Assembly: GCA_002162075.1 (NCBI GenBank)
Contig: CP021423.1
Coordinates: 806,001 to 870,000, forward strand
Direction: 5' to 3'
DNA length: 64,000 nt
From: Armatimonadetes bacterium Uphvl-Ar1
GTDB taxonomy: Bacteria; Armatimonadota; Fimbriimonadia; Fimbriimonadales; Fimbriimonadaceae
The notes under the pieces are model-generated. The model worked only from the letters and a program-made list of their open reading frames with translations. It did no database searches and was not told the DNA's origin. A program made the position numbers and the translations under genes. This document shows, piece by piece, positions 6,391 to 47,985 of the stretch. Every line of letters starts with the position of its first letter. Position 1 is the stretch's first letter.

Positions 6391-6573
6391 GCCCCCTCCT
6401 AAGTCCTCCCCCAAAGGGGGAGGGGGACTCTAACAATAGCCTCGCTGTATCCCAGCCTGGCCCCCTCCTAAGTCCTCCCCGGAGGGGGAGGGGGAACGAC
6501 GAACAAGGATATAACCCCTTCTAAGTCCCCTGTTCAAGCCAGGGGCAGGCTCTCCCACAAAGGGGGAGGAGGA
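6391..6573. repeat. Palindromic repeat family A, copies A1-A3, intergenic
   Basis: Three copies of a GC-rich palindrome of about 38 bp start near 6391, 6461 and 6514. The unit is CCCCCTCCTAAGTCC, a C run, a short loop, then a G run with GGAGGGGG. The third copy is a longer variant with an extra CAGGCTCTCCC segment, also seen at 47006-47067. The array lies between the gene remnant at 6135 and ribBA and is not inside a recognised gene here. Confidence 0.85.
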
Positions 6574-7916: not shown

Positions 7917-7961
7917 TGACCTCACCCCCTAGCCCCCTCTCCATTAAAACGGAGAGGGGGG
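7917..7961. repeat. Palindromic repeat family B, copy 1
   Basis: The sequence TGACCTCACCCCC, a short linker and then a 10-bp stem (7933-7942 with 7951-7960) around ATTAAAAC is nearly identical to 27599-27641. It lies 17 bases past the stop of the minus-strand permease gene, so it may work as its 3' hairpin. Confidence 0.8.
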
Positions 7962-9128: not shown

Positions 9129-10229
9129 TTATGATTTGGGACGGTTGCGGAGGATGGTTTGGAGGGCCTTTTTGGCTTTTGATTTGTCGTTGAGGAGGAT
9201 TTTTCCATCGATGACGAGATTGGCGAGTTGTTCTTTGAGGATTCCAACTTGGGGACCGGGGGGGATTTTGGCGATGGCCATGATTTCTTGACCGGTGAGG
9301 GGTGAGTCGTATGTGGACTGTGGTTCTTGGGTTTTGAGTTCTTGGATTTTTTCTTTGAGTTCGGAGAGGTCCAGGCGTCGGACCCCGGATTTTAAGGCTT
9401 TGGCATCGGCATCGATGAGAGTGAGCCAGCTGTCGAGTTGGGAGCCGAGATCGCGGATGATTCTTCTTGTCGCGGGGATGGAGAGTTTTTTTATCCCGGT
9501 GAGGCGCATGTGGTTTTTGACGAGCAGGCGGACGGCAGTTGCGGTGTCTTGGGAGTATCTCCAGCGGAGGCAGAGTTCGTATGCGAGGTCGGCGCCGATG
9601 TTTTCGTGATTGAAGAATCGGATTTGACCGTTAGAGTCGATGGATTTTGTGATGGGTTTTGCGATGTCGTGGAGTAGGGCGCCGAGAAGGATTTCGAGGT
9701 TTGGAGAGTTTGTCTTGCCCCCTCCTGAGTCCTCCCCCGTAGGGGGAGGGGGGACGAAATTTTGGATCGGGGATTCATGGATTTTGCCCCCTCCTAAGTC
9801 CTCCCCCAGAGGGGGAGGGGGGACGCTTGCATATGGGAACGAAATCGTGGACACGTTTTTGACGACGTGGAGCGTGTGTGTCCAGACATCGGCGTAGTGC
9901 CACTGGCCTTGATCGACGTCCACCATGGCTTCGAGTTCGGGGGCCCAAGTTTGAAGGAGTTTGAGGTCCAGGAGGTCTTGGAGGGCGAGGTCAGGGTTTG
10001 GGCCGAGGAGAATTTTGGTGAATTCGTCGCGGATTCTTTCTTGGGAGATGATGGCGAGGCGGGGTGCTGCGGCGCGAATAGCACTTGCTAGGTCGTTGAT
10101 GGAATTCTCTTTTGTGCCCTCTCCTAAGTCCTCCCCCGGAGGGGGAGGGGGGACGAAACCTCGGATTTGGGGTCCCGGTAATTTGCCCCCTCCTAAGTCC
10201 TCCCCAGAGGGGGAGGGGAAGTATTGCCC
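9129..10229 (-). CDS. cca: CCA-adding enzyme, C-terminal part (HD domain), separated by frameshift
   Basis: This frame is open from 10229 to the stop at 9129 and continues the tRNA nucleotidyltransferase begun at 11314. It carries the RNA-binding region (ISQERIRDEFTKILLG), then an HD-type domain (HTLHVV, LLHDIAKP, FNHENIGADLA) found in many bacterial CCA enzymes, then a helical C-terminus. Two in-frame pairs of palindromic repeats are visible. Copies A6-A7 lie between the head and RNA-binding regions, and A4-A5 lie inside the HD domain loop just before LLHD. Each copy is translated as PPPP-x-GED-x-GGG. The break from the N-terminal frame lies in repeat A7, where a C run (10202-10205) has four bases instead of the five in other copies. 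Confidence 0.8.
   Translation of the reverse strand, partial: GQYFPSPSGEDLGGGKLPGPQIRGFVPPPPPGEDLGEGTKENSINDLASAIRAAAPRLAIISQERIRDEFTKILLGPNPDLALQDLLDLKLLQTWAPELEAMVDVDQGQWHYADVWTHTLHVVKNVSTISFPYASVPPPPLGEDLGGGKIHESPIQNFVPPPPTGEDSGGGKTNSPNLEILLGALLHDIAKPITKSIDSNGQIRFFNHENIGADLAYELCLRWRYSQDTATAVRLLVKNHMRLTGIKKLSIPATRRIIRDLGSQLDSWLTLIDADAKALKSGVRRLDLSELKEKIQELKTQEPQSTYDSPLTGQEIMAIAKIPPGPQVGILKEQLANLVIDGKILLNDKSKAKKALQTILRNRPKS
9718..9824. repeat. Palindromic repeat family A, copies A4-A5, inside cca HD domain
   Basis: Two copies begin at 9718 and 9787, exactly 69 bp apart. They are translated on the minus strand as PPPPTGEDSGGGK and PPPPLGEDLGGGK and keep the cca frame open. They sit in a loop between the first HD-domain helix and the LLHD motif. 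Confidence 0.85.
10117..10219. repeat. Palindromic repeat family A, copies A6-A7, inside cca
   Basis: Two copies begin at 10117 and 10186, 69 bp apart, with a spacer similar to that of the other cca arrays. A7 has one base fewer in its C run (10202-10205), which breaks the cca frame. Confidence 0.85.
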
Positions 10230-11314
10230 TTAATTGGATTCTCAAATGTCTCAAGGAATGTAAAGCCGAGTTGGTGTTTGAATCTGACGGCGCGAAGCAT
10301 TCTGAGGGGGTCGTCGGAGAAAGTCTGATGGGGGTCGAGGGGGGTGCGTATGATTTGGTTATGAAGGTCATCGAGTGCTACTCCAATCGGATCGAGGAGT
10401 TCTTGGCTATGGAGATTGACGAGGAGGGTGTTGATGGTGAAATCGCGGCGGAGGGCATCATCGGCTAGGGTTGCTGGTTCGATATTGGGTTTTCGGGAGT
10501 CGGGGCTGTAGGATTCTCGCCGCGCGGTGATGAGTTCGATATTGACGCCCGCAATGTGGAGCATGGCTGTCCCGAATCTTGCATAAATTTGAGGGCTTGG
10601 AATGCTTTTCGGGTCAGCTTTGTGAAGGAACTCGGCGAGCTTGATTGCATCTTGTTCTGTTACGAGATCGAAGTCGTTTTTTTGAGGGCGATTGAGTAGG
10701 GCGTCGCGGATTGCGCCACCGACGATGTAGATTTGGTTTTCGAACTTGTTGTTCGTCGTGAGGAGTTTGATTTTTGCGAGTGCTGGGTGGTCTAGGAGGT
10801 CGCTGAGTTTTTGTATCTTTCCCCTTCTTGAGTCCTCACCTAGTGGGGGAGGTGGAGCGAATCCTAGACTTTCGGGTTCCGGTAATTTTCCCCCTCCTAA
10901 GTCCTCCCCCGGAGGGGGAGGGGGGACGAAATCTTGGCTTTGGGGTTCTAGTAATACGCCCCCTTCTAAGTCCTCCCCCGGAGGGGGAGGGGGGACGCTT
11001 TCTTGATTCTGACTGGCGAGTATTGCTATGCAAGTTTCAAAGAGTCCGTTTGAAATTTGGAGCGCATGGCGAAAAATATCATCATAGGTGAATCTCTGGA
11101 CTGTCCAACCCTGTGATTCAAGGAAAGCTGATCTTCGTTCGTCTTTGTCTTCTTGATCAGTATGAGAATTGCCGTCCAACTCAATCACAAGGCGGCAGGA
11201 ACTGCAAGCGAAGTCGACGATGTAGGGAGGAATTGTATGTTGGCGACGGAAGACAATCCCAGATTTCCTGAATTCTTTCAGATATGACCAGAGAATTCGT
11301 TCGGGGCGGGTCAT
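10193..11314 (-). CDS. cca: DUF559 nuclease-like domain fused to CCA-adding enzyme head domain
   Basis: Residues 1-105 are a DUF559 domain (MTRPERILW, FRRQHTIPPYIVDF, LVIELDGNSH), an endonuclease-like fold related to very-short-patch repair and PD-(D/E)XK proteins. Residues about 110-180 are three tandem palindromic repeats (A8-A10) read as PPPP-x-GED. From about 185 the class II nucleotidyltransferase head of the CCA enzyme follows: IYIVGGAIRDALL, FDLVTE with catalytic Asp residues, DDALRRDFTINTL, and DDPLRMLRAVRF. This enzyme adds or repairs the CCA end of tRNA. The frame ends early at 10193, inside repeat A7, by loss of one base; the remainder is at 9129-10229. No separate Met start exists for the cca part, so the fusion seems genuine. 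Confidence 0.8.
   Translation of the reverse strand: MTRPERILWSYLKEFRKSGIVFRRQHTIPPYIVDFACSSCRLVIELDGNSHTDQEDKDERRSAFLESQGWTVQRFTYDDIFRHALQISNGLFETCIAILASQNQESVPPPPPGEDLEGGVLLEPQSQDFVPPPPPGEDLGGGKLPEPESLGFAPPPPLGEDSRRGKIQKLSDLLDHPALAKIKLLTTNNKFENQIYIVGGAIRDALLNRPQKNDFDLVTEQDAIKLAEFLHKADPKSIPSPQIYARFGTAMLHIAGVNIELITARRESYSPDSRKPNIEPATLADDALRRDFTINTLLVNLHSQELLDPIGVALDDLHNQIIRTPLDPHQTFSDDPLRMLRAVRFKHQLGFTFLETFENPIKGNTSPPPLGRT
10821..10995. repeat. Palindromic repeat family A, copies A8-A10, DUF559-cca linker
   Basis: Three copies begin at 10821, 10890 and 10959, each 69 bp apart. Spacers of about 31 bases are homologous to each other and to those at 9718 and 10117. They encode the linker between the DUF559 domain and the nucleotidyltransferase head. 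A8 is the most diverged copy. Confidence 0.85.
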
Positions 11315-11409
11315 GTTTTTCCGGAGTTCGCGGCTTGGGCGAGGAGTTCCGGTGGGATGTGTGGGGGTTTGGCGATGTTTTAGTTTAGAGGATTCGGTAT
11401 GTTGACGGT

Positions 11410-27598: not shown

Positions 27599-27641
27599 TG
27601 ACCTCACCCCCAACCCCCTCTCCATTAAAACGGAGAGGGGG
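27599..27641. repeat. Palindromic repeat family B, copy 2
   Basis: This is nearly identical to 7917-7961: TGACCTCACCCCC, linker, then a 10-bp stem (27614-27623 with 27632-27641) closing ATTAAAAC. As in copy 1, it lies just past the stop of a minus-strand gene, here only 3 bases from the penicillin acylase stop. Confidence 0.8.
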
Positions 27642-45895: not shown

Positions 45896-47985
45896 TAGGG
45901 GTCAGTGATAAATTCCTGAGGAGTGATGATCCGGCCTGACTCATCATAGAATGCTAGTCGGAGCGGCGGAATTGGGTCGCGCCCACGTACGATTTTGATC
46001 AGAATACGGGATTCTCCGGCGGTTGTGAATTCGGATGATCCTGACGCATGGAGAAAGGGTTTGGGGGTCGTATCGTTGTAGCTGGTTACGAGAGTGCCGT
46101 CGATCCAGATTTTGAGTCCGCCGGGAAATTGCGTTTGCAGATTGAGCAGGCCGGAGGAATTCCAGGTGACATGAGCGTAAAGGTAAGCAACGCCGGGGCC
46201 GCCGTTGAAGACAGGTTCAAGGTCAAATTCAGTGGCAGGGAAATTTTGGACTTGCCAGCGAATGCCCATCTCACTACGACCGGAGAATGGTTGGGTCATT
46301 GACTGGATTTTTTGATTGTTCTTTTCGGGTGGGTGTTCGTAGGAGAAGCCGGTGCCTTCGATGTTAACGAACGGGCCGAGAACCGAGAATTGAGTGGGTT
46401 GAAGGAATGGGATGAGGAGTTGGTAGTTGTCCACTCGGAGACGGAGGTTGGTGTCGGGGGCCGTTGTCGTTGGAGGTTGGATAACGGTCGGGAATTTGAC
46501 CGATTCTCCGGGGCGGAGGGCGCAATCGGCGATTCGGCTTGCGATTTGCCATCCTTCTGGTCCGGTGATAGCCAAGGCGATGTTGCGCGTCTCTCCGGTC
46601 GGGTTTTTGATTGTGATTTGGAGCTTTTTAACGGGCGGTGCAGCAATTGGTGTTTCGAGGTAGTTGGCGGTGATAATGAGTCCAGCGAGTTCGGTTGTGG
46701 TTGTGGTGTTGTGAGTACAGGTTAGTTCTGGTGTGGTGATGTTTTGGACTTGTTCTTGATCCTCTCCTGAGCCCACCCGGGGGAGAGGGGTGTCGCTTTC
46801 TAAGCTAGCATTGGTGTCATTTAGTTCTTGTTCTCGGCCCCCTCCTAAGTCCAGCACCAGGGGAGGTGGGGGGGCATCTTCTGAATCAGAATTGGTGCTA
46901 GGTTGTTCTAGCGGTTCTTGGCCCCCTCCTGAGTCCTCCCCCAGCGGGGGAGGGGGGGCATCTTCTGAATTAGGATTGGCGTTAGGTTGTTCTAACGATT
47001 CTTGATCTTCTCCTAAGTCCCCGGATTGAGTCTGGGGCAGGCTCTCCCCTTGGAGGGGAAGGGCGACACTTTCTGAGATGAGACGGGCAAAGTCAGCGAT
47101 GCCAGCGGGGGGAGAGATGTGTTTGAGGGCGTGGGTGGCAAGGAATGCAGGGTCGAGTGAGGTGATGTAGTCGGGACGGAGTGGCGACCACAGGAAACAC
47201 GCGATGGCTGCGGCAGTCGCCGCGCTGAGTTCAGACTGGCCGCCGCATCCAGCTGCGATGAGCATTGCTTGTTCACTATTCTGATCGGAGTGAAGGAGCC
47301 CGAGGAGAGCAAATGCGGCGGTTGCAACGCAATGAGATCGGTTGATATCGGGGAAATTAGTGGCGAATTGGTTGGCGAAGAATTGAGCGGCCTCCGGATT
47401 TCCGATATTTTTTGAAATTGCGGGAGTGATGCGATGAAGTTGGGATTCAGCGGGAAGGATTGCGGTGACTCGATTGAGGAAATCTTGGGCGGTGTCTCCA
47501 GGCTGAGATAGGCTGAGAGCTACGGCAAGTGCAGCGGGAATCCATGCGCCATCGCCCGCATGGTCAATGCCGGCGTCGTGAAATGCAGAGGTATATGCGG
47601 CTTGGGGGTTACCGAAGTGGAGAAAACCCCAGATAAGTGAACGCAGGATGGCGCGCGGTCCATCGCTCAGTGGATTGTCGAGAGAACCGGAATAGGGAGT
47701 TCCATATCCTCGGCGGAGATTGAAAAGCCCAAAAGCAGTTTCGTCGGTGTGGTCATCAAGGGACTCGAGAAGGATTTGACCGTAGAGGAAGGGTTTGCGG
47801 TTTTCGAGGTGTGCTTTTTGCCAGATAAGCCACGAATCGAGGCTCGCGTGGGGCGACATTCTGGTTGGAATGGGAGAGTATCCGGTGAGGCGTTGGAATT
47901 GGGTTCGTCCGACATGGGGGCTACCGAGAGCGAGCCCCGCAATTGCGCCGAGAGCGGCTTGTTCAACCTGAATTTGAATACTCAT
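45895..47985 (-). CDS. ADP-ribosylglycohydrolase-like protein with in-frame palindromic repeats and C-terminal beta domain
   Basis: 696 residues. Residues 1-310 look like the all-helical ADP-ribosylglycohydrolase fold (GAIAGLALGSPHVG, FHDAGIDHAGDGAWIPAALAVAL, AAGCGGQSELSAATAAAIACF), though the usual acidic metal residues are partly altered, so activity is uncertain. Residues about 315-410 are a linker built from palindromic repeats A11-A14, read as PPPPLGEDSGGG separated by SLEQPNANPNSEDA-type spacers. Residues 430-690 are beta-rich domains (KLQITIKNPTGETRNIALAI, then a jelly-roll-like NFPATEFDLEPVFNGGPG). No signal peptide is seen. Repeats keep the frame open through four copies. It is followed by a coupled membrane protein gene. 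Confidence 0.7.
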   Translation of the reverse strand: MSIQIQVEQAALGAIAGLALGSPHVGRTQFQRLTGYSPIPTRMSPHASLDSWLIWQKAHLENRKPFLYGQILLESLDDHTDETAFGLFNLRRGYGTPYSGSLDNPLSDGPRAILRSLIWGFLHFGNPQAAYTSAFHDAGIDHAGDGAWIPAALAVALSLSQPGDTAQDFLNRVTAILPAESQLHRITPAISKNIGNPEAAQFFANQFATNFPDINRSHCVATAAFALLGLLHSDQNSEQAMLIAAGCGGQSELSAATAAAIACFLWSPLRPDYITSLDPAFLATHALKHISPPAGIADFARLISESVALPLQGESLPQTQSGDLGEDQESLEQPNANPNSEDAPPPPLGEDSGGGQEPLEQPSTNSDSEDAPPPPLVLDLGGGREQELNDTNASLESDTPLPRVGSGEDQEQVQNITTPELTCTHNTTTTTELAGLIITANYLETPIAAPPVKKLQITIKNPTGETRNIALAITGPEGWQIASRIADCALRPGESVKFPTVIQPPTTTAPDTNLRLRVDNYQLLIPFLQPTQFSVLGPFVNIEGTGFSYEHPPEKNNQKIQSMTQPFSGRSEMGIRWQVQNFPATEFDLEPVFNGGPGVAYLYAHVTWNSSGLLNLQTQFPGGLKIWIDGTLVTSYNDTTPKPFLHASGSSEFTTAGESRILIKIVRGRDPIPPLRLAFYDESGRIITPQEFITDP
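46761..47067. repeat. Palindromic repeat family A, copies A11-A14, inside the ADP-ribosylglycohydrolase-like gene
   Basis: Four copies start near 46761, 46838, 46922 and 47006. The last three are 84 bases apart, again a multiple of three. Their spacers are homologous to one another (GCATCTTCTGAAT...GGTTGTTCTA) but differ from the cca spacers. A14 is the long variant with CAGGCTCTCCC. Translation on the minus strand is in the same frame as in cca. Confidence 0.85.

Follow-up and report, generated by a model that had tools for sequence, protein, structure and literature searches.

Triplex-type palindromic repeats inside cca of an Armatimonadetes bacterium and their probable association with a DUF559 nuclease

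Intrastrand triplex motifs (TM or TMECO, formerly PIT) are known from more than 260 bacterial genomes, and a link to genome instability has been drawn (Holder et al. 2015, PMC4666352). They consist of a hairpin rich in C and T, CCCTCTCCC-n-GGGAGAGGG, and of a third, mirror arm, GGGTGAGGG. TMECO forms a triplex in vitro, its loci are unstable in E. coli, and the authors never found transposase or integrase remnants near TM in that species (PMC4666352). Another class of short palindromes is represented by the REPtrons, in which an enzyme gene flanked by copies of the repeat constitutes the autonomous form, repeat and enzyme make up lineage-specific cognate pairs, and solo copies, some of them in genes, are found elsewhere (PMC2817692, PMC3733652). 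Rickettsia palindromic elements (RPEs, ~150 bp) lie in conserved genes and show one preferred frame (PMC10969869). Among nucleases, the Vsr/EDxHD homing endonucleases (1cw0, 3r3p I-Bth0305I) are relevant here, as is VsrA, a DUF559 protein of Caulobacter. The study of VsrA, the only functional one on a DUF559 protein that was found, has read it as a mismatch-repair nuclease that by its activity damages DNA when a methyltransferase is missing (PMC12907096).

The window analysed here is a stretch of 64,000 nucleotides (positions 806,001 to 870,000 of contig CP021423.1) from Armatimonadetes bacterium Uphvl-Ar1, and it contains cca, the sole PolyA_pol gene of this 2.99-Mb single-contig genome. The preliminary description of the window had noticed seven palindromes at three places inside Cca, in steps of 69 bp and with homologous spacers. 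All seven have been located by their coordinates (starts at 9731, 9800, 10130, 10199, 10834, 10903 and 10972), the spacing is exactly 69 bp within each of the three sites, and the spacers between neighbouring palindromes are mutually homologous throughout cca. The features on which the following text relies are these, in window coordinates:

6392 to 6495: intergenic copy pair, palindromes 6405-6423 and 6474-6491, 69 bp apart
9129 to 10229, minus strand: ORF 2, in the other frame, with two repeat copies, the RNA-binding part and the HD domain with two more copies
9492 to 9695: HD domain of ORF 2
9718 to 9757: palindromic unit copy 7, HD-domain loop, palindrome 9731-9749
9787 to 9826: copy 6, HD-domain loop, palindrome 9800-9818, 69 bp from copy 7
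10117 to 10156: copy 5, between the head and the RNA-binding part, palindrome 10130-10148
10186 to 10222: copy 4, C run one base short
10193 to 11314, minus strand: ORF 1, with DUF559, three repeat copies and the Cca catalytic head (PolyA_pol, 10346-10732)
10821 to 10860: copy 3, degenerate, CCTCACCTAGTGGGGGAGG
10890 to 10929: copy 2, perfect consensus
10959 to 10998: copy 1, of all copies the closest to the DUF559 domain
11057 to 11335, minus strand: DUF559 (PF04480) Vsr-like/EDxHD nuclease domain, the only one of the genome, with conserved acidic/His residues
46922 to 46961: in-frame copy APPPPLGEDSGGG in the linker between the ADP-ribosylglycohydrolase and NEW3 domains of the minus-strand ORF 45898-47985

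Read on the minus strand, six of the seven cca copies yield PPPPxGEDxGGG. This frame had been claimed for every copy, and the exception is the one at 10186-10222, which carries C4 where most copies have C5 and at which the reading frame breaks, between the frame 1 stop at 10193 and the frame 2 stop at 10229, so that cca is split over the two ORFs listed above. The chances appear evenly balanced that this frameshift is a homopolymer error of the assembly and that, as in the sister species, cca encodes a single unbroken DUF559-Cca fusion. The break sits in the C run of a GC-rich palindrome, the C4 variant recurs in other copies of the unit in the same genome, a second cca is absent, and the corresponding ORF of the sister genome G078 is intact; true decay in such repeats is, however, just as possible. 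The question concerns the frame break only, and either answer is compatible with the main explanation given below.

What the preliminary description had called an N-terminal linker is more than a linker. The three copies there join the Cca head to an upstream domain that had been missed, namely a DUF559 domain (PF04480, E=1e-26, 93.3 bits vs a curated cut-off of 20.6) at the N-terminus of ORF 1. A six-frame search has returned it with 108 bits as the single DUF559 of the genome. From codon 84, in DUF559, to codon 289, in the Cca head, ORF 1 offers no ATG, GTG or TTG; therefore, given ordinary start codons, the Cca head can be made only as a DUF559 fusion. An AlphaFold model of the domain (pLDDT 91.7) matches NGO0050 with Z 15.0, the catalytic domain of I-Bth0305I (3r3p) with Z 12.3 and Vsr (1cw0) with Z 10.7, the latter two matches spanning 93-99 residues, so that the Vsr/EDxHD fold is shared across the domain. 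All invariant residues (E, D, E-x-D, H, D) are kept. Based on this modelled fold and these residues, it is plausible that the window DUF559 is an active nuclease related to mobile-intron enzymes. It has the fold and the E/D/H/D residues of the Vsr/EDxHD homing endonucleases and of VsrA (PMC12907096), but unlike the homing endonucleases it has no seen linkage to an intron, intein or methyltransferase, and DUF559 genes are instead bracketed by triplex-type palindromes. In the window, the repeats lie on one side of the domain only, the cca side. No HUH (RAYT) domain was detected in the flanking ORFs tested, and the gene beside the repeats is DUF559. A specific defence system at the locus was considered and rejected, the PADLOC matches being weak and partial only. 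Related loci queried for with the fused protein returned no match.

The Cca orthologues of seven congeners (G078-G084) have been compared with that of the window. The sister genome G078 (82% identity) encodes a single intact 750-aa ORF in the order DUF559, inserts, Cca, and its inserts occupy the same three sites; sites 1 and 2 carry palindromes of a different family, SLTPSPDGEGKGWGD, and at site 3 a single PPPSLGEDSGGG copy stands where the window has two. In G079, G080, G081, G082, G083 and G084, no DUF559 has been found at cca and no palindromic inserts, and the HD loop of the G084 protein contains an unrelated insertion. As judged from these alignments, the empty sites in six congeners together with the differences in G078 indicate that the inserts are young, that the loops holding them are tolerant and that both their identity and their number are subject to turnover. 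An origin as ancient conserved segments of Cca is ruled out by the empty sites in these six congeners, and insert identity and copy number differ between the sister species. The only DUF559 element of G079 lies ~3.8 kb from cca, unfused, with three hairpins on each side (G079:C9:67000-79000, L093).

The palindromic unit occurs at about 24 places in the genome, most of its copies being intergenic. A 34-mer with up to 3 mismatches has given 22 genome matches vs 0 for the reversed pattern, and a degenerate hairpin 115 vs 0 for its control; chance palindromes are ruled out by the reversed-pattern controls. Its anatomy comprises three arms, CCCCCTCC-TAAGT-CCTCCCCC-nnn-GGGGGAGG, and the third arm, CCCCCTCC, which precedes the hairpin, is kept in nearly all of 29 own-genome copies. 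The DNA folding energy of the window unit is no better than that of shuffles of its own GC-rich composition, and energy alone is therefore no evidence. As the dispersed unit shared outside cca measures only ~36-48 bp, the 69-bp period is local to cca, and the 69-bp repeat of the preliminary description thus holds there but not for the genome at large, the intergenic pair at 6405/6474 excepted. This pair has the cca spacing with a spacer unrelated to those of cca. Tandem duplication itself is also found elsewhere with a locus-specific period, the ADP-ribosylglycohydrolase gene (window 45898-47985) containing two copies ~81 bp apart with homologous spacers of their own. Two further hairpins in the window, at 7936-7957 and 27617-27638, have the sequence CCTCTCCATTAAAACGGAGAGG, which flanks another DUF559 gene in G080 and G081 (L096, L100); they are orphans here, in a genome without the corresponding DUF559. 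Repeats of the CGTCATTCCGGGCGTGACCCGGAAT type, with a CGTC tag, lie beside several palindrome copies (own genome; L012, L014, L020, L022).

Other in-gene copies have been found in a carboxyltransferase (CT_A_B) gene and, going by our inferred assignment of the overlapping ORF, in a PMT glycosyltransferase gene. Six in-gene sites in four genes are all read in the -2 frame, one of four frames open in the unit, and the single frame proposed from cca has been extended to the ADP-ribosylglycohydrolase, CT_A_B and PMT genes. A tuning of the element for entry into coding DNA is not supported, as most copies are intergenic and those in genes occupy linkers and loops, which is expected if selection removes the others. 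In relatives, the ADP-ribosylglycohydrolase linker is a naturally variable acidic stretch; survival in tolerant places is consequently sufficient to explain the frame bias without tuning. The CT_A_B gene is also two-framed around inserted repeats of several families (G000:C1 ~2130000, L050).

By its sequence, the window motif belongs to the TM/PIT class, as a G/C-rich hairpin and a third mirror arm are present. Both have the same three-arm plan, are multi-copy and are genetically unstable; TMECO, however, was always intergenic and no mobility gene was seen nearby, whereas the present motif also has in-gene copies and forms brackets around DUF559 genes. The preliminary description had likened the unit to RPEs, which is apt for its use of the frame, and had missed both the already known triplex-repeat class and the adjacent DUF559. 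RPEs are likewise palindromes in conserved genes, but they are longer than the window units, which are ~40 bp, of triplex type, linked to DUF559 and mostly intergenic. REPtrons are the closest functional analogue and have in common with the present system the short palindromes, the enzyme gene flanked by copies, the lineage-specific cognate pairs and the solo copies, some of them in genes. From REPs the unit differs in lacking the GTAG end tag and in having the extra third arm, and where the REPtron enzyme is an HUH tyrosine transposase (RAYT), the gene found here encodes a PD-(D/E)XK-type DUF559 nuclease.

We consider it probable that the palindromes are lineage-specific members of TM/PIT, that the adjacent DUF559 nuclease is their partner and that they spread in a homing-like manner. 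Within the family, 61 of 85 genomes encode DUF559, with up to 11 copies per genome, and in the relatives its genes sit between CTCCC-type hairpins that differ between different DUF559 genes of one genome. A scan of named genomes has provided 80 loci with DUF559, which belong to Alpha-, Gamma- and Deltaproteobacteria, Planctomycetes, Chloroflexi, Nitrospirae, Poribacteria and others. At these 80 loci, CTCCC-type hairpins amount to 2.7-3.1 per kb at <=250 bp from DUF559 and to ~0.1 per kb (range 0-0.5) farther away. At least one hairpin flank is present in 60 of the 74 complete loci, compared with 4.5% of random windows from the same loci, and both flanks in 40 of 74 vs 8 of 2375 random windows (0.3%); 14 of the 74 genes have no such flank. 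The third arms of the flanks point inward in 58 cases and outward in 7, in 34 of 40 loci the two flanks match better as inverted than as direct repeats, so that terminal inverted repeats hold for the class, and the outer ends of the brackets are ~440 bp apart. The two ends of one DUF559 element of G081 also occur on their own, as ~40-bp copies scattered over dozens of sites in the G080 and G081 genomes. When one DUF559 site is set side by side in these two species, the same gap contains different hairpins in each, much as palindromes have been replaced in cca, and going by this comparison existing palindromes may be the targets. DUF559 copies on plasmids of P. aeruginosa and Azospirillum brasilense have no clear hairpin flanks, no usable empty site was found among the plasmid copies examined, and a clean insertion with target-site duplication was not found. 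No paper connecting DUF559 with palindromes was found in the freely accessible, non-subscription literature searched.

The association extends to whole genomes. Among 255 genomes of the phylum, the 122 with clear DUF559 matches contain a median of 14.5 hairpins vs 2 in the 105 without DUF559 (Mann-Whitney p=1e-9; family-stratified permutation p=2e-4). It is not absolute, with 20 or more hairpins in 17 of the 105 DUF559-less genomes, and orphan repeats after gene loss, incomplete genomes or another enzyme would explain these. The last of these leads to the strongest alternative, namely that the palindromes owe their spread to a different enzyme, either a RAYT-type HUH transposase or another nuclease, with DUF559 being trapped cargo or using the hairpins as terminators or regulators. 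We regard this as unlikely, even though REPs mobilised by RAYTs set a precedent (PMC3733652) and the 17 hairpin-rich genomes would be accommodated, because DUF559 specifically is bracketed by inverted cognate repeats at a constant distance in many phyla, the flanking hairpins differ between the DUF559 genes of one genome, and the window unit carries no GTAG end tag.

A spread without any dedicated enzyme, in which the hairpin or triplex stalls replication and the repeats are copied by slippage, template switching and recombination, draws on E. coli, in which TM loci are unstable (PMC4666352). In our comparison, E. coli strains differ in their TM content at two loci, and the presence/absence sites represent deletions between arms or an island insertion, not clean transposition. 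At alx-sstT, a deletion has occurred between two CCCTCTCCC arms, as slippage would produce, and the locus-dependent tandem period (69 and ~81 bp) is in line with it as well. Such processes cover local changes in copy number, but not dispersed cognate families that track the sequence of the neighbouring DUF559, and they leave the bracketing of DUF559 unexplained; as an account of the whole, passive spread is thus quite improbable. In the same species, only 168 bp separate TMECO no. 9 (1351204-1351239, MG1655) from ycjD, the product of which is annotated as DUF559. In O157 and several further E. coli strains, an efflux gene island is located between fabI and the ycjD side, near the triplex repeat (L196 5719-10364, L197). 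The earlier reading of an RPE-like sequence adapted to in-frame entry into coding DNA can draw on the one frame of four used at six sites in four genes and on such behaviour in RPEs themselves (PMC10969869), but with most copies lying between genes, the in-gene ones in tolerant places such as the variable ADP-ribosylglycohydrolase linker, and a ~40 bp length, third arm and DUF559 link unlike RPEs, it is very improbable.

With DUF559 as the partner, we propose an element built like a REPtron, in which a nuclease stands in place of the RAYT. Its autonomous form would comprise a hairpin, an inward third arm, the DUF559 gene, a third arm and a hairpin, with the outer ends ~440 bp apart, and its non-autonomous form would consist of single or arrayed hairpins. 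At the locus described here, a DUF559 gene would have inserted at the cca 5' end, accompanied by repeats on the side facing cca, the repeats would then have seeded two permissive loops inside Cca, and the copies would have grown in tandem by 69-bp steps. Copies translated as PPPPxGEDxGGG within a linker or a surface loop would be the ones to survive in genes, most other insertions persisting between genes. The nuclease would break or nick DNA within or close to a site that forms a hairpin or that matches, and a palindrome-bearing template would then be copied during repair by host recombination, a homing-like route rather than classical transposition, while local copy number would change by slippage or unequal recombination. 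The proposal is based on observed features, namely the anatomy with its conserved third arm, the inverted-repeat arrangement and near-constant size of the brackets, the position of DUF559 as sole such gene beside the repeats, its bracketing across phyla and its association with hairpins at the genome level, the solo ends, the proximity of ycjD to TMECO no. 9, the I-Bth0305I/Vsr nuclease fold, the empty cca sites, the turnover in G078 and the use of one frame. Against it stand the hairpin-rich genomes without DUF559, the unflanked DUF559 genes, the lack of a target-site duplication, the one-sided repeats of the window and the mismatch-repair reading of VsrA.

Taken more broadly, there is about an even chance that the triplex palindromes bracketing DUF559 genes define a class of tiny selfish elements (~0.45 kb) that spans phyla and had so far gone unrecognised, built from an inverted repeat, a 100-residue nuclease gene and an inverted repeat, with the long-known TM/PIT repeats of E. 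coli and hundreds of other genomes as their ends and DUF559, including E. coli YcjD, as the missing mobility enzyme. The interest of the cca finding accordingly lies in the DUF559-linked palindromic element that it has exposed and not in any in-frame tuning, and the case illustrates how such repeats enter the reading frame of a conserved enzyme. The sequences compared suggest a nuclease as the partner of a class of 'orphan' repeats that is widespread in bacteria. With a consistent partner of this kind, the origin of TM/PIT repeats becomes directly testable, DUF559, a large family named for its 'unknown function', would gain a role, and a second, non-homologous type of enzyme would be added to the REP/RAYT way of life.
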